A stretch of DNA of 32,806 nt from Candidatus Gastranaerophilales bacterium. Its GTDB lineage: Bacteria > Cyanobacteriota > Vampirovibrionia > Gastranaerophilales > Gastranaerophilaceae. Both the position numbers and the translations under genes were made by a program. Location of the stretch: positions 1-32,806 of the forward strand of contig CANPZN010000012.1 in NCBI GenBank assembly GCA_947588785.1, in the 5' to 3' direction. Shown in pieces: positions 3,447 to 9,445 of this stretch. The notes below the pieces were generated by a model that worked only from the letters and a program-made list of their open reading frames with translations, made no database searches and was not told the origin of the DNA. The first letter of the stretch is position 1. Every line of letters begins with the position of its first letter.

Positions 3447-5741
3447 TTGTATAAATTTGATTTTGAACTTGATGATTTTCAAAAAGAAGCAGTTGAATGT
3501 ATAAATAATAATAAAAGTGTAGTAGTATGTGCTCCAACCGGTGCAGGAAAAACTTGTATTGCTGAACATGCCATACATAAAGCATTGGAAGAAAATACAA
3601 GACTATTTTATACTACGCCGTTAAAAGCACTTTCTAATCAGAAATTTTATGACTTCTCTCAGAAATACGGAGAAGAAAATGTAGGTCTTTTGACCGGAGA
3701 TACCTCTATAAACAGAGAAGCACAAATCGTTGTAATGACGACCGAAGTATTTAGAAATATGCTATATAATACAAATTTCGGTTCGTTAAAAGATAATCTA
3801 AAAAATGTAAAATATGTGGTATTAGATGAAGTTCATTATATGAATGATGAACAAAGAGGAACTGTTTGGGAAGAAAGTATAATTTACTGCCCTTCAAATA
3901 TACAAATTATTGCATTAAGTGCAACAGTAGCAAATTCAAAGCAATTATGTGATTGGATAAATACTGTTCATTCAGCAACAGAACATATATATACAGATTT
4001 TCGTCCAGTACCGTTAAGACATTATTATTATGATTCATCAAAACCTTATGAAATATTGCCATTATTAACACCTGACGGAAAATTAAATCGTAAAATAAAA
4101 CCTGAAAAAAAATTAAATTACTATTCAAGACAAATAAAAAAAAGGAATACAGTAAAAGATGTTATAAGTGTACTTCATAAAAAGGAAATGTTGCCGGCTA
4201 TATTTTTTACATTTTCACGTAAAAAATGTGATGAAAATATGGAAAAATGTTCTGATATTAATTTGATAACACCGGAAGAAGGTAAAAAAATAAGAGAAGA
4301 AATACAAAACTTTTTAAAGGATCATAAATATTTAGAAAATAATAAAAATTTAGAATACATATACAATGGTGTAGCTTCTCATCACGCAGGTTTATTACCG
4401 GCATTGAAAGTATTAGTGGAAAGATTATTTCAAAAAGGATTAATAAAAGTAGTATTCGCCACGGAGACACTGGCAGCCGGAATAAATATGCCGGCAAGGA
4501 CAACTGTAATTTCCGCAATAAGTAAAAGAACAGATTCAGGACACAGAATGCTAAGTGCAAATGAATTTTTACAAATGTCAGGTCGAGCAGGACGTCGAGG
4601 CATGGATAAAATCGGAAATGTTGTAGTAATGGGAACTCAATTTCAATCACCTGAAGAAGTTGCTCAACTGGTAAAAAGCAGTGCTAATCCGTTAGAAAGT
4701 CAGTTTAGTCCTACGTATTCCATGGTTTTAAATCTGTTACAAAATTTAGAGCTGGATCAGGCAAAAGAGTTAATTTTAAAAAGTTTTGGATATTATTCTT
4801 CAAATGATAGACTAAAACCGATGATAATACAGCAGATAAATTGTGAACAAATGCTTGCAAAATTAAAAAATGAAAAATGTCCCTTCGGCTTGTCAAATGA
4901 AGACTTTATGGAATTTAATAAATTAAAAGAAAAGTATATTGTCTATAGAAAACTAACTCGTACTCTTCAAAAACAAGCAAAACAAAAAGGATTAAAAGAT
5001 ACTCTGGAAGTTATCGAATATTTAAATCAAACAAGGGAATTAAGAGAACAATTAGAAAAATATAATTGTGAAGTATGTAAAGGTTATAAAAAACATATAA
5101 AAAATCTGGAAATCTTGAAAAGATATGAAAAAAAATACAAAGAAACATGCAAAAAAATAGAAAATCAAAAAGATATATATTGGAATCAATTTATAGCCCA
5201 TAAAGAAATATTGGAAAAATTTGGATATATAAAAAATGCTTCACCTACTGATGAAGGAATTTTATGTTCTATGATAAGAGCAGAAAATGAATTATTCTTA
5301 AGCGAAATTATTTTGCAAGGTGTTATGGATGAATTAGAACCTTTTGAACTCGCTGCTGTTATATGTGCAATAGTTACAGAAGATTTGAGAACTGATGTGT
5401 ATCCAAGTCAACCGTTAAGCAAAAATACACGAAAAGCATTAAATAAAATAAAAGAAATAAGAAAAAAAATTGCCATTATACAAAGAGAATATGATATTAA
5501 TACGGAAATGTATATAAATTCTTATTATTCACCATTAATGGAACAATGGGTACTGGAAACTCCTTGGGAAGATATTGCAAAACAAGTGGATTCTTCTGAA
5601 GGTGATATAGTAAGGATCTTCAAAAGAACCGTTGATGTCTTAAGGCAGCTAACAATACTTCCCAATATTTCTGAAACTCTTAAACAAAATGCCAAAATTG
5701 CAATTAGCATGATTTTAAGAGAACCTGTAGATGAAGATTAA
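3447..5741 (+). CDS. Ski2/Mtr4-like DEVH-box RNA helicase with DSHCT domain
   Basis: This is an SF2 helicase predicted to unwind RNA during processing or decay. It starts at TTG 3447 behind AAGGCGGA, with no ATG nearby. Motif I is APTGAGKT (Lys35), motif II is DEVH at residues 127-130, motif III is SAT, and motif VI is QMSGRAGRRG. VASHHAGLLP and FATETLAAGINMPART are diagnostic of the Ski2-like group. The C-terminal 350 residues combine a coiled-coil-rich insertion with a DSHCT-type end (PFELAAVICAIV and VRIFKRTVDVLRQL). Cyanobacteria carry such eukaryote-like helicases, which supports the taxonomic guess. Within the insertion, cysteine pairs occur in NCEVCKGYKK. The stop overlaps the convergent regulator's stop by 4 bp. 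The cellular role in bacteria is not established. Confidence 0.9.
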   Translation: MYKFDFELDDFQKEAVECINNNKSVVVCAPTGAGKTCIAEHAIHKALEENTRLFYTTPLKALSNQKFYDFSQKYGEENVGLLTGDTSINREAQIVVMTTEVFRNMLYNTNFGSLKDNLKNVKYVVLDEVHYMNDEQRGTVWEESIIYCPSNIQIIALSATVANSKQLCDWINTVHSATEHIYTDFRPVPLRHYYYDSSKPYEILPLLTPDGKLNRKIKPEKKLNYYSRQIKKRNTVKDVISVLHKKEMLPAIFFTFSRKKCDENMEKCSDINLITPEEGKKIREEIQNFLKDHKYLENNKNLEYIYNGVASHHAGLLPALKVLVERLFQKGLIKVVFATETLAAGINMPARTTVISAISKRTDSGHRMLSANEFLQMSGRAGRRGMDKIGNVVVMGTQFQSPEEVAQLVKSSANPLESQFSPTYSMVLNLLQNLELDQAKELILKSFGYYSSNDRLKPMIIQQINCEQMLAKLKNEKCPFGLSNEDFMEFNKLKEKYIVYRKLTRTLQKQAKQKGLKDTLEVIEYLNQTRELREQLEKYNCEVCKGYKKHIKNLEILKRYEKKYKETCKKIENQKDIYWNQFIAHKEILEKFGYIKNASPTDEGILCSMIRAENELFLSEIILQGVMDELEPFELAAVICAIVTEDLRTDVYPSQPLSKNTRKALNKIKEIRKKIAIIQREYDINTEMYINSYYSPLMEQWVLETPWEDIAKQVDSSEGDIVRIFKRTVDVLRQLTILPNISETLKQNAKIAISMILREPVDED

Positions 5742-6160
5742 CCGTAAATAGCCTTAATTCCCTGAAGATTTAGAATAAGACTATCTAAGGCATCTTTATT
5801 TCCTTTTTTAATTTCAATAAATTTTAAAACCATATCTCTGCTGGCATCTGTATCTAATATGTCAATTAACCCGGCAAGTTCATCGTTTGTAAGATTTAAT
5901 CTTTCTTGAAGTTTTGCAAGATAATTTAAATCCAGCTCAACCTTTTTCGATATGAACATATTACCTTTTCCTGTTAAAAGCCAGTTAATATTAATTTTAT
6001 ATGTTTCAATCAGGGCATTTAAAAACTTAGGCCCCGGTTGAGCTTCATCTCTTTCATAACTGCCAATTGTACGGACAGGAATTTGTAGCTTTTCTGCCAG
6101 TTCTGCCGATGTTAAATTTAGAGTAGTTTTAATTTCTTTTATTCTTTTTCCAATACTCAT
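5738..6160 (-). CDS. XRE-family helix-turn-helix transcriptional regulator
   Basis: This is a 140-residue DNA-binding protein. Residues 1-65 are a Cro/CI-type HTH (LTSAELAEKLQIPVRTIGSY is the helix-turn-helix), followed by the common XRE extension ININWLLTGKGNMF. The second half is helical and probably dimerises; its partner or ligand is unknown. It is divergent from two unknown genes and smpB. The spacer holds two identical perfect inverted repeats just upstream of its own ATG, so it very likely represses itself and perhaps the divergent genes. Its TAA and the helicase TAA share one TTAA (5738-5741). It resembles phage-type repressors, but no other phage gene is nearby. Confidence 0.88.
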   Translation of the reverse strand: MSIGKRIKEIKTTLNLTSAELAEKLQIPVRTIGSYERDEAQPGPKFLNALIETYKININWLLTGKGNMFISKKVELDLNYLAKLQERLNLTNDELAGLIDILDTDASRDMVLKFIEIKKGNKDALDSLILNLQGIKAIYG

Positions 6161-6183
6161 AATTTATTCCACTTGAACTTTTG

Positions 6184-6199
6184 TTACATTATTATGTAA
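6184..6199. promoter_or_regulatory. Operator 1: TTACAT-N4-ATGTAA
   Basis: A perfect inverted repeat, TTACAT TATT ATGTAA, lies 23 bp upstream of the XRE regulator's ATG. The size suits a dimeric XRE protein. An identical pair of arms recurs at 6215. Assignment to this regulator is inference from position and symmetry. Confidence 0.72.
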
Positions 6200-6214
6200 T
6201 AAAGTTGTATTATT

Positions 6215-6230
6215 TTACATGATAATGTAA
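6215..6230. promoter_or_regulatory. Operator 2: TTACAT-N4-ATGTAA
   Basis: This is the second perfect copy of the same arms (spacer GATA). It is offset from operator 1 by exactly 31 bp, about three helical turns, so two dimers would bind the same DNA face. Isolated half-sites follow: ATGTAA at 6256-6261, TTACAT at 6290-6295 and ATGTAA at 6322-6327. They approach the promoter of the divergent genes. Confidence 0.72.
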
Positions 6231-6288
6231 TATAGTATTTGTAAATCATAATATCATGTAACTTCCAGATACTGATATTATACAACAG

Positions 6289-6317
6289 TTTACATTTTAT
6301 TGCACTAATTTTATTAA
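6289..6317 (+). promoter_or_regulatory. Candidate sigma-70 promoter of the two unknown genes
   Basis: TTTACA (6289-6294), a 17-bp spacer and TATTAA (6312-6317) resemble -35 and -10 boxes. A half operator (TTACAT, 6290-6295) overlaps the -35 box, so regulator binding could block it. The assignment is by pattern only. Confidence 0.4.
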
Positions 6318-6365
6318 TTAGATGTAAATGACGTTACAAAATTAAATAAGGAGTGGTTGCGAAAA

Positions 6366-6674
6366 ATGTTAAAAAGTAATACAGGGCTGAAATATTCGCT
6401 TAATTATTATTGTGAAGAAAAGTCATCATTTGTAAAGTTTATAACAAAATTAAAAGATGTAATTAAATACAATGTAATTTTAAGGAATAAAAAATTATAT
6501 ATATTGAAAGGGATAATAGCAAGATTTTATAAAGATTATGAGGAAAGTACAGGAATAATAGATATACCTTATTATAAAAAAACGGAAATGATGTTAGAGA
6601 AAATTGCCAAAGAAAATAAAATTGATTATTACTACGAAAAGTTGAAGAGATTAGAAAAAATATATAAAGATTAG
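6366..6674 (+). CDS. Small protein of unknown function, first gene beside the XRE regulator
   Basis: I do not recognise this protein. It is about 102 residues from ATG 6366 (105 if translation starts at the in-frame TTG 6357). AAGGAG at 6348-6353 lies 12 bp from the ATG and only 3 bp from the TTG, so the start is uncertain. It is strongly basic and rich in Lys, Tyr and Ile, with no signal peptide or membrane segment. The second half looks like charged helix. It is the first gene after the operator region and 8 bp upstream of another unknown gene, so it should be controlled by the divergent XRE protein. The very high A content resembles recently acquired or fast-evolving genes. Confidence 0.6.
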   Translation: MLKSNTGLKYSLNYYCEEKSSFVKFITKLKDVIKYNVILRNKKLYILKGIIARFYKDYEESTGIIDIPYYKKTEMMLEKIAKENKIDYYYEKLKRLEKIYKD

Positions 6675-6682
6675 GAAAAAAA

Positions 6683-7183
6683 GTGGAAGTATATAAAAAG
6701 AATAAAATTGAAAAAATTTTTTCAGAAAAGATAGATTGTCAATCAGATATAAATGAGATAGTTGCATTATTGAGAAGGTATAAAAAAATTACTGATTTAT
6801 ATAGCTATAAAATAAAGGTTGATAAATCAAATAAAAAATTATTAATTAATTTAATTGAATTTAAAGATTTTAATTTATATAGTTTGTCAGCGATAGTATG
6901 GAATTTAAATAACTGGGAAAAGTATTTAAAGGTAAAGTCGGAAATAAAGATATATAAGAATAAAAAAGAAATTATGGATTGTCCTGAAAAAATTTGTAAT
7001 AATGAGCTAGAGCGAAATTTTGGAGTGGATATTTTACAAGGTAAGTACTATCAGGAGAGAAAGGAAAATTCAATGCAGCCTGAGGCAAAGTACGACACCG
7101 GATTAAATTTAAAAAAAATAAGATATATTTTATTAGCAGATATTTATAATAAAGTTATAAAAAAAATAATAATGATGATATAA
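6683..7183 (+). CDS. Protein of unknown function carrying a dispersed repeat near its C-terminus
   Basis: I do not recognise this protein. It has 166 residues with a GTG start and AGGA 6 bp upstream. The first two thirds are mixed alpha/beta and Lys-rich (KIDCQSDINEIVALLRRYKK and onward). Residues about 106-141 are encoded by a copy of the dispersed repeat also found near 11.4, 21.1 and 29.65 kb (ERNFGVDILQGKYY, then KYDTGLN). The repeat may therefore have entered the coding sequence in frame, or the other copies may be decayed relatives of this domain. A short hydrophobic Ile-rich end follows (IIMMI). It is probably co-transcribed with the preceding small gene, and smpB begins 7 bp later. 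Confidence 0.55.
   Translation: MEVYKKNKIEKIFSEKIDCQSDINEIVALLRRYKKITDLYSYKIKVDKSNKKLLINLIEFKDFNLYSLSAIVWNLNNWEKYLKVKSEIKIYKNKKEIMDCPEKICNNELERNFGVDILQGKYYQERKENSMQPEAKYDTGLNLKKIRYILLADIYNKVIKKIIMMI
6998..7106 (+). repeat. Dispersed repeat, copy A (inside the unknown ORF)
   Basis: Alignable blocks shared with copy D are AATAA-GA, CGAAATT-TGGAG-GG and TTTTA-AAGGT. It shares CGACACCGGATTAAAT (16 of 16 bases) with copy C and AATTTTGGAGTGGA (14 of 14) with copy B. Between GGT and GACACC, the aligned arms GTACT (7045-7049) and AGTAC (7089-7093) can pair, enclosing a GCC-TGA-GGC mini-hairpin (7078-7086). It is read in the ORF frame. Confidence 0.65.
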
Positions 7184-7190
7184 TTTTTTT

Positions 7191-7643
7191 ATGGGAAAGA
7201 AAATTATATCAACAAATAGAAAAGCATTTCATGAGTATCATATTTTTGACAGATACACTGCAGGTATGGTATTAACGGGAACTGAGATAAAATCGGTAAG
7301 AAAAGGTGCTGTTAATTTAAAAGATAGCTTTGTAAAAGTAGATGATTTTGAAGTTTTTTTATATAACTGTCATATAAGTCCATATGAACAAGGAAATAGG
7401 TATAATCACGAAGAGAAGCGAACGAGAAAACTTTTATTACGAAAGAAAGAGATTGAAAAGTTAATCGGGAAAATAAAAAAAGACGGATATTCAATTGTTC
7501 CTCTTGAATTGTATTTGGATAATGGTTGGGCAAAGATTGAAATTGCTCTTGCAAAAGGGAAAAAGTTATATGATAAACGTGAAGACTTGGCAAAAAAAGC
7601 ACAAGCCAGAGATATTGCCCGTTTTGTGAAATCAAAGCATTAA
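7191..7643 (+). CDS. smpB: SsrA-binding protein SmpB
   Basis: SmpB binds tmRNA and helps rescue stalled ribosomes. The 150-residue length is typical. It opens with ISTNRKAFHEYHIFDRYTAG and GTEIKSVRKG, covers the OB-fold residues NLKDSFV, and ends in the basic tail YDKREDLAKKAQARDIARF, all hallmark SmpB segments. The ATG follows a U-rich stretch with no clear ribosome site, so translation may depend on the upstream gene or be leader-poor. The tmRNA gene itself is not in the window. Its TAA shares a TTAA with the stop of convergent dnaX (7640-7643). Confidence 0.96.
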   Translation: MGKKIISTNRKAFHEYHIFDRYTAGMVLTGTEIKSVRKGAVNLKDSFVKVDDFEVFLYNCHISPYEQGNRYNHEEKRTRKLLLRKKEIEKLIGKIKKDGYSIVPLELYLDNGWAKIEIALAKGKKLYDKREDLAKKAQARDIARFVKSKH

Positions 7644-9445
7644 TTAATATATTTCCCGTCGAAAAGTTGCTTAACCATTGTTGCTTGATCTGAAGTATTT
7701 TCAGGTTCAGAAATATTTTCTTTATTTTCGATATCAGAATTTTGTTTAATTTTAGTTTCAATGAATGATTGATAATCTTCTTCTTCTTGTTGTGTAAGAT
7801 TTTGTTCATCTTCTTGTTTTTCTTTTGGTCTATTTAAAGCCGAAGGTGATATTTTTTTTGAGAAATCAATATTATTACTTAAAATTATTTCTATATTTGG
7901 ATTTTTAATATTCATATATTTAGAAACAGCTTCAACTATTGCATTTTTCTTATTACCTTCTTTAGCTTGTTTAACAAACATTTCTTTAGAGAAAGCAATT
8001 ACGATTTTTTCATTTGAAATTTCAACCGGTTTTGCCAATCCGGAATAAAAAGCACGCGTAGGAGGGCTGTCTATACTTTGTAATATTGATACCCACAGAT
8101 TATGCATATCTGAATTGTCCGAATTGTTTTCCGTTGAAGATTTTTCTTGTTTTAAGACTTCTTTTATTATAGGTTGTTCGTGTTTTTCAACTGATTGTAT
8201 AGGTTTTTCAAAATGATTTTGTGAATCATTTGTCGGTTTAATTACATTTGGAGTTTGTGATTTAACTGAAAAATTACCTGATTGTATTTTAGATTCCAAT
8301 TCTTCGATTCTTTTTAAAAGATTTTCAGCCGAAGGAAGGTTTTTATAATTTGTTAAATCAATAATACATAATTCAAGCCATAGATATTTATTTGTTGTAT
8401 CTTTTATTTGTGTAGAATAGTAAGACAACCTGTCAATTATTTGAATAATTTCAGAGACACTGAACTTTTCAGATTGAGTTTTAATTTTATCATAATTTAT
8501 TTCATTAATTTGAGTAAGAGAATATATTAATTCTTTATCAGAGCAATTTTTAACTATTAACATATCCCGAAAATATTGAATGAGATTGGAAACTATTTGA
8601 ATAGGTTCATTACCTTTTGAATATATATTATCGATTAAAGGGACAGATTGAGTACAATCGCCAGAAATAATATATTTAGTGATATCGTGCAAAGTATCAA
8701 AAGAAATTTTTCCCAGAATTTCATTTATATCATTGATGTCAATTTGTTTATTAATGCCAAGAACACTAATTTGATCCAATAAAGCGAGGGCATCACGCAT
8801 TCCTCCTTGTGAATTTTTTGCAATAGCAAATAAAGCATCTTTTGAAATATTTATATTTTCTTTCTGTGAAATATATTCAAGTCTTTTAACAATATCATCG
8901 GTAGTAATTCTTCTGAAATCGAATCTTTGACACCTGGAGATAATTGTATCAAGAACTTTATGCGGTTCCGTTGTTGCAAGAATGAAGATTACATTTGCCG
9001 GCGGTTCTTCTAATGTTTTTAAGAGAGCATTGAAAGCGTGATTAGATAGCATATGGACTTCATCAATTACATAAATTTTATATCTTCCATTAACGGGAAC
9101 ATATTGAATTTTTTCCAGGATAGCTTGAGTATCTTCAACACTTCTGTTACTTGCGGCATCGATTTCTATAACATCAACCGGAACGGAATTCATAATATCA
9201 AGGCAAGCAGGACATTTCCCACAAGGCGTAAGAGTTGGGCCTTCTTTACAATTAAGCGATTTAGCCAGGATTCTTGCTGATGATGTTTTTCCCGTACCTC
9301 TTGGCCCGCATAATAAGTATGCATTGGCTATACGATTTAATTCAATAGCATTGCTGAGAGCATGAACTATATTTTCTTGTCCTATGAGGTCATGGAATGT
9401 TTGCGGTCTGTATTTACGATATAGAGGAATATATTTATTTTCCAA
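7640..9445 (-). CDS. dnaX: DNA polymerase III subunit gamma/tau
   Basis: This is the AAA+ clamp-loader subunit of the replicative polymerase. It uses a TTG start at 9445 with TAGGAG seven bases upstream. Walker A is GPRGTGKT (residues 47-54), zinc-binding cysteines are at about 66, 75, 78 and 81 (CGKCPAC), and DEVHML is followed by ALLKTLEEPP, an SRC-type arginine-finger region (SRCQRF). Domain III ends near residue 370. A Ser/Asn/Gln/Glu-rich linker is followed by a tau-like region (LWVSILQSI). At 601 residues it is full length. An A8 run in the mRNA (7845-7852, near residue 533) lies too far downstream to give a typical gamma product. Confidence 0.96.
   Translation of the reverse strand: MENKYIPLYRKYRPQTFHDLIGQENIVHALSNAIELNRIANAYLLCGPRGTGKTSSARILAKSLNCKEGPTLTPCGKCPACLDIMNSVPVDVIEIDAASNRSVEDTQAILEKIQYVPVNGRYKIYVIDEVHMLSNHAFNALLKTLEEPPANVIFILATTEPHKVLDTIISRCQRFDFRRITTDDIVKRLEYISQKENINISKDALFAIAKNSQGGMRDALALLDQISVLGINKQIDINDINEILGKISFDTLHDITKYIISGDCTQSVPLIDNIYSKGNEPIQIVSNLIQYFRDMLIVKNCSDKELIYSLTQINEINYDKIKTQSEKFSVSEIIQIIDRLSYYSTQIKDTTNKYLWLELCIIDLTNYKNLPSAENLLKRIEELESKIQSGNFSVKSQTPNVIKPTNDSQNHFEKPIQSVEKHEQPIIKEVLKQEKSSTENNSDNSDMHNLWVSILQSIDSPPTRAFYSGLAKPVEISNEKIVIAFSKEMFVKQAKEGNKKNAIVEAVSKYMNIKNPNIEIILSNNIDFSKKISPSALNRPKEKQEDEQNLTQQEEEDYQSFIETKIKQNSDIENKENISEPENTSDQATMVKQLFDGKYIN

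Follow-up and report, generated by a model that had tools for sequence, protein, structure and literature searches.

In Caulobacter crescentus, the core promoter of the two-gene gafYZ operon holds two inverted repeats, each with an N4 centre, on which the cI-like repressor RogA sits (PMC9632790, PMC11150451). The operon lies apart from the ~14 kb phage structural cluster of the C. crescentus gene transfer agent (GTA), CcGTA, with accessory genes elsewhere, and enrichment of RogA, which has an S24 peptidase-like domain, was reported at gafYZ and a single other promoter only (PMC9632790, PMC11150451). We describe here a module of similar layout in a stretch of 32,806 nucleotides from a Candidatus Gastranaerophilales bacterium (GCA_947588785.1, contig CANPZN010000012.1, positions 1 to 32,806, forward strand; hereafter the window), in which the gene for an XRE-family regulator faces two small open reading frames (ORFs), ORF1 and ORF2, across a spacer with paired TTACAT-N4-ATGTAA operators. 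The genome, of 2.1 Mb, has 153 contigs, the window being C12, and the hosts are gut-dwelling, non-photosynthetic relatives of cyanobacteria. Our working hypothesis, to which we give a probability of roughly 0.7 on comparative grounds, is that the module is an immunity switch captured from a podovirus-like phage, with the XRE protein acting as master repressor of a regulon of domesticated phage genes.

The module shares with RogA-gafYZ a repressor, a two-gene operon (with ORF2 missing at 10 of 30 loci) whose core promoter carries twin N4 inverted repeats, and a position separate from the phage cluster. It differs in its regulator, a protein of 140 amino acids (aa) with no S24 peptidase-like domain, and in that the cluster and accessory genes carry operators of the window type too. 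The module most likely works like RogA-gafYZ with different parts, a likeness of layout; we do not count it as a member of that system, because the domain structure of RogA is absent. By sequence, the nearest solved relative of the XRE protein is the helix-turn-helix (HTH) of the Xre-family regulator of ICEBs1 (7t8i, E 3.6e-8); the match is limited to the HTH, and no conjugative element was seen at the window module. Phage-derived repressors and GTAs are both known kinds of system. Our literature search, which combined gene transfer agent with Gastranaerophilales, Melainabacteria, Cyanobacteria and viriforms, and Gastranaerophilales with prophage, found, among titles and opening lines, no account from this lineage of a GTA-like cluster whose switch has been mapped, with few subscription journals covered. 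If our hypothesis is correct, domesticated phage clusters of GTA type would extend to a new and deep lineage, that of these uncultured gut bacteria, and the case would be independent of the GTAs of Alphaproteobacteria. Its repressor switch would be traceable to the phage's own immunity region, and the regulator, operator and list of targets, all defined by sequence, could be tested in a surrogate host.

The module and its phage relatives

The locus runs from a helicase gene (3447-5741, plus strand) through XRE, the spacer, ORF1 and ORF2 to smpB (7191-7643, plus strand) and dnaX (7640-9445, minus strand). Its features are as follows, with the strand given where a feature has one.

5738..6160, minus strand: predicted repressor of the XRE family (140 aa), its HTH within residues 1 to ~66
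6184..6199: operator A, TTACAT-TATT-ATGTAA, incomplete as a palindrome in most relatives
6205..6233, plus strand: likely ORF1 promoter, TTGTAT (6205-6210), 17 bp, TAATAT (6228-6233), in a block kept in 29 spacers
6215..6230: operator B, TTACAT-GATA-ATGTAA, the better conserved of the two
6256..6261: half-site ATGTAA, within a conserved block
6277..6282, minus strand: likely -10 of the XRE promoter, TATAAT, in the conserved block ATATTATACAAC of the spacer alignment
6290..6295: half-site TTACAT, in the window sequence
6322..6327: half-site ATGTAA, in the window sequence
6366..6674, plus strand: ORF1, 102 aa, basic, phage early-protein family, ATG after AAGGAG
6683..7183, plus strand: ORF2, 166 aa, basic, GTG start, a fast-evolving optional second gene
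6965..7105, plus strand: dispersed-repeat insertion within ORF2, in frame, bounds approximate

A preliminary description made from the window had an XRE repressor facing two small basic proteins across 205 bp, and this is borne out by the coordinates (spacer 6161-6365) and by isoelectric points of 9.45 for ORF1 and 9.38 for ORF2; an in-frame TTG lies upstream of the ORF1 ATG, at 6357. The further half-sites it mentioned are likewise in place. It also took the two operators to be identical and 31 bp apart, which holds for the arms and for the start-to-start spacing, whereas the centres differ (TATT and GATA). Its statement that neither small protein belongs to a recognized family agrees with our finding no credible match for either in Pfam, NCBIfam or PADLOC; Pfam searches with the alignment members of both gave scattered weak matches only.

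The evidence for a phage source comes from ORF1. A profile search found it in 26 of 288 genomes of the family, 9 of them outside the genus. Relatives lie within a prophage-like stretch adjoining an XRE gene in four genomes (G006, G114, G165, G272; G numbers denote genomes and L numbers the stretches compared) and amid phage-like genes in two more (G134, G101). Three IMG/VR contigs hold ORF1 of the phage type; the INPHARED phage set gave no match to it, and neither ORF1 nor ORF2 of the window type was found in IMG/VR. Comparison of the window-type and phage-type profiles gave a probability of 97% (E 6.8e-11). In IMG/VR contigs L193 and L194 and in prophages L356 and L357 (G272, G006), syntenic terS, terL, p70 and portal genes stand on one side of XRE, followed, as far as each stretch extends, by the capsid gene in L356, L357 and L194 and by a tail gene in L356 and L357; on the other side are ORF1 and a replication-type gene (ORF1 of L357 was masked by an overlapping ORF in the split alignment and is taken from a separate reading of G006). 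These immunity regions of Gastranaerophilales temperate phages thus resemble the module in that XRE diverges from an ORF1-type early gene, with the same structural set adjacent. They differ in having a short ORF before ORF1, named ribbon-helix-helix-like by eye, and the replication-type gene after it; in the window module both are absent, ORF2 follows ORF1 and the structural genes lie elsewhere. On these comparisons, ORF1 is by origin a phage early protein, and the locus has the arrangement of a phage lysis-lysogeny switch, a repressor divergent from an early phage gene with common operators. The ORF1 sequence begins MKKRHLRLVVS in most relatives and has diverged at this end in the window protein. 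Its AlphaFold2 model (alignment of 28 of the 30 loci plus the window, leaving out the near-duplicate L113 and the remnant L134) has three helices and a mean predicted local distance difference test score (pLDDT) of 77, and a fold search with it returned nothing convincing.

The preliminary description had offered a toxin-antitoxin, prophage or competence-like switch. The repressor and early-gene arrangement fits the second of these, and no toxin model was matched. A toxin-antitoxin pair, with XRE as antitoxin and ORF1 or ORF2 as toxin, is the least probable explanation that we weighed. A small XRE gene does adjoin small basic ORFs, its product has weak similarity to the HTH of XRE antitoxins, and both ORFs evolve fast; but neither matches a toxin or defence model (a toxin of an undescribed kind being conceivable), the relatives of ORF1 are phage early genes, and two genomes (G300, G304) keep XRE without ORF1. 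Toxin-antitoxin genes are usually co-directional, unlike the divergent order here.

Conservation of the XRE family and its operator

The XRE protein matches HTH_19 (E 2.5e-12), HTH-type models being the only ones above the cut-off, and has a conserved C-terminal tail, KFIEIKKGNKEALDSLI.NLQGIKAIYG. Relatives in the alignment are 62-83% identical to the window protein over 27 rows (of 32, the rest being left out for odd start codons). The relatives of the module belong to Candidatus Gastranaerophilales, and across the genus it sits between the helicase gene and smpB. Window-type XRE is present in 34 of 41 genus genomes, two more (G142, G295) having only a copy of ~50% identity elsewhere, and ORF1 was matched by single-sequence search in 31 of the 41, including one remnant (G123). 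ORF2 is found in 20 of the 30 parsed ORF1 loci adjoining smpB. The trio on which the preliminary description relied is to this extent conserved, both ORFs included. Median ratios of nonsynonymous to synonymous substitution (dN/dS, with dS partly saturated) are 0.127 for XRE (380 of 496 pairs used), 0.283 for ORF1 (362 of 435) and 0.572 for ORF2 (167 of 171, without G000); 79 of 153 pairs were used for SmpB. By these values ORF1 appears to be a genuine, selected gene and ORF2 a loose one.

No TTACAT-N4-ATGTAA match arose when the window was shuffled 100 times. The spacer, ~200 bp, can be aligned across 29 genomes (G174 and G210 were left out of the consensus); within it operator A varies and is often reduced to a half-site, and operator B occupies the region between the -35 and -10 of the likely ORF1 promoter and overlaps the -10. 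The 29 genus spacers contain 9 perfect sites, against a mean of 0.008 for 119 inverted repeats of the same composition; the 12 rlmH-p124 regions in this comparison are a biased sample, 5 having been chosen for holding the site. A perfect operator also stands upstream of 6 of 9 XRE relatives picked on protein similarity alone, the six coming from three other genera; in the remaining upstream regions there is a site with one mismatch in G061 and none in G142 and G295. The nine regions represent seven of the nine non-genus genomes with an XRE relative, plus G142 and G295. On this evidence the operator goes with the XRE family, and the absence of operators upstream of orthologous regulators, which the preliminary description named as grounds for abandoning its proposal, was not what we found in the 29 spacers and in six of the nine relatives.

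A small ORF in the XRE leader, weighed by eye, was dropped because it is not conserved. In another genus (g22), the XRE relative adjoins prepilin-like genes, with a perfect operator 5' of XRE (L168, L170, L171, L173), preceded in G260 by TTGACA, and a link of phage control to pili is possible there.

Phage cluster and dispersed operator sites

In the window genome, structural genes of the type carried by the ORF1 phages are located on contig C40. PHROG and Pfam matches identify terL, a head-tail connector, a GP7 capsid, tail proteins and a GH108 lysin, so that a near-complete phage structural set (terL, portal, capsid, tail), as looked for in a GTA, is present. Within the genus the capsid search covered the 20 genomes of the family draw, out of the set of 41, and found the gene in 20/20; at E <= 1e-20 it is present in 50 of the 288 genomes of the family. 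Genus capsids are 85-91% identical to that of the window genome (81% in G012), with lengths of 331-339 aa in 19 genus genomes and G012; the G278 gene is divided between two contigs. The mean amino-acid distance of the capsid, with G012 and G278 left out of within-genus distances, is 0.122 compared with 0.159 for SmpB, and its median dN/dS is 0.072 (dS partly saturated). Capsid distances correlate with those of SmpB (r 0.31, p 0.021, n 18) and XRE (r 0.594, p 0.0002, n 15). Vertical inheritance and purifying selection, as expected of a GTA, are thus both seen (20/20 genomes, dN/dS 0.072). The gene p124 follows rlmH in 13 of the 16 genomes with p124 that were examined (one gene intervenes in G000); the cluster is split in some species, since a block begins at the lysin elsewhere in G077, G185 and G299. 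No integrase, replication or repressor gene was seen in the ORF tables of the cluster, which include unidentified genes and several copies cut by contig ends. The cluster, known here from its genes, looks like a domesticated, vertically inherited, GTA-like element.

The preliminary description had called the module self-contained, a view that a genome scan of the kind it proposed does not sustain. Perfect operators number 58 in the 41 genomes, 11 at the XRE/smpB locus and 47 outside it, and on reading the context of all 47 we class 23 as phage-linked, the class being our own. Five lie between rlmH and p124, at the cluster start (G290, G293, G221, G049, G302), and three at terL, p70 or the lysin (G000, G308, G302). 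Ten are upstream of proteins beginning like WNEADHPRDEEGKFT (HPRDEEGKF-type) or of a related family, among which fusions to a GH108-type lysozyme and one protein with an LPD3 domain were seen, and five accompany the leader motif of the cluster. Among the other 24, 11 are inside ORFs of at least 90 aa, two of these being short ORFs. A second site (at most two mismatches) occurs 29-32 bp away at 8 of the 23 phage-linked sites versus 1 of the 24 others, the background being 0.14-0.27%. In favour of repression, the -10 of a TTGAAA-17/18-TATAAT promoter falls in the operator centre at seven sites. Recurrence of the operators at lysis-type genes and the structural cluster makes the module look like a control point for a regulon dispersed in the genome. 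One operator pair classed as not phage-linked, 29 bp apart, is flanked by a transporter-like gene and the gene for a 296-aa protein whose start is signal-like (L315 3030).

These sites also bear on the idea that XRE is mainly a regulator of smpB and trans-translation, or of competence, with the phage-linked sites incidental. The position of the module directly 5' of smpB, whose start is 8 positions past the ORF2 stop in 16 of the 20 genomes with ORF2, speaks for it, as does the other genus in which the operator lies in the spacer between XRE and adjoining prepilin-like genes; yet 23 of 47 outside sites are phage-linked and in G012 the XRE-ORF1 pair is located away from smpB, and we regard this explanation as very improbable. 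Less remote, if still unlikely, is a purely local, autoregulated phage-derived switch, serving for instance in immunity against related phage, with the sites at the cluster being functionless former operators and the cluster itself decaying slowly. The XRE-ORF1 pair does descend from a phage immunity region and the cluster operators are patchy. Immunity could be useful because the genus also harbours related prophage-like copies, two more distant ones being in G185 (contigs C5 and C7; capsid 66% and 56%). Against such decay, the structural genes are present in 20/20 genomes under purifying selection, and perfect operators stand at non-homologous places (lysin and HPRDEEGKF-type genes) with the ~30 bp pairing kept, which relics should lose.

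We therefore return to the XRE protein as master repressor of a domesticated-phage regulon. Operator conservation, recurrence of the operator at phage genes, the phage origin of ORF1 and the conservation and purifying selection of the cluster are established by sequence comparison; the following scheme is our proposal. The module would have come from a phage with a short tail (podovirus-like); the genus would have retained the structural genes of this phage elsewhere in the chromosome, as a GTA-like cluster passed on vertically. XRE would bind TTACAT-N4-ATGTAA, often as two operators ~30 bp apart, and would repress rather than activate the divergent ORF1-ORF2 promoter, in which an operator lies between -35 and -10; it would also directly repress the structural cluster or its lysin, plus several scattered lysis-type genes. 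On relief of repression, ORF1 and, where present, ORF2 would be made and would probably help to switch the cluster on, and phage-like particles or lysis might follow. The bacterium seems to have turned the retained phage remnant to its own ends, possibly for shuttling genes between cells. A fuller version, in which XRE and twin operators control the structural cluster, lysins and accessory genes as a complete dispersed GTA regulon, with ORF1-ORF2 acting as activator or anti-terminator on a conserved, structured leader RNA common to the cluster and accessory loci, is more doubtful, and we put it forward tentatively.

Several observations weigh against the regulon hypothesis. The excess of operators over a reversed-pattern control is modest (58 versus 34). 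A perfect operator stands at the cluster start in only 5 of 41 genomes, and no site with at most two mismatches is present at rlmH-p124 in G174, G199, G231, G303, G307, G284 and G000. At p124 the operator is well upstream of the likely -10, so that activation there is conceivable. G259 and G303 keep the cluster with the helicase gene directly followed by smpB and no XRE or ORF1; G300 and G304 have XRE but lack ORF1, G123 has only the ORF1 remnant, and in G142 and G295 the sole XRE copy, of ~50% identity and located elsewhere, is without operator.

A conserved leader RNA-like element, GACTTGAGTA...GAAAAGGTGACTGG.TTCGTTAAGTC, precedes p124 (L325 4055-4150; also L313, L235, L236, L237, L233, L348, L134, L234 and L196) and contains a short covarying helix, with 4 of 10 pairs changed on both sides in 10 sequences. 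A related element lies 3' of the operators that we call class 2 (L242, L250, L253, L254, L309, L310). Because of these two elements, control after initiation by way of the leader is plausible. Rfam gave tRNA only, plus tmRNA below the gathering score, and no family for the leader; class-2 operator and leader units are found close to tRNA genes (L309, L318). A second palindromic element, AAAGATATATC(G/T)TTT, lies upstream of the likely -10 between rlmH and p124 in most genomes (e.g. L325 3940-4095) and is perhaps an activator site.

ORF2 and the smpB junction

The window ORF2, at 166 aa, is abnormally long compared with the 93-122 aa of its relatives, extended by the in-frame insertion of a dispersed genomic repeat; the repeat sequence GAGCGAAATTTTGGAG has 9 copies in the genome with at most one mismatch, versus 0 for a reversed control, and BLAST adds partial copies. 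The AlphaFold2 model of a relative (G308) has a mean pLDDT of 91. Its PDB matches are weak and mixed, to Rad52/Mgm101 and double-stranded RNA-binding domains (Z <= 5.9), and none was found in BFVD at E <= 0.001, ERF recombination proteins recurring in the list. Binding of nucleic acid by ORF2 is hinted at by this model. Of the structure prediction and remote homology search that the preliminary description suggested for both proteins, profiles have thus tied ORF1 to phages, and ORF2 has yielded weak, mixed fold matches only. PHROG_24375, of unknown function, was weakly matched by the window ORF2 (E 1.9e-4), the match occurring in 1 of 20 ORF2 members, and was not used. At the end of ORF2 a TATAAT stands immediately 5' of the smpB ATG (window 7179-7191), where smpB may have a promoter of its own.

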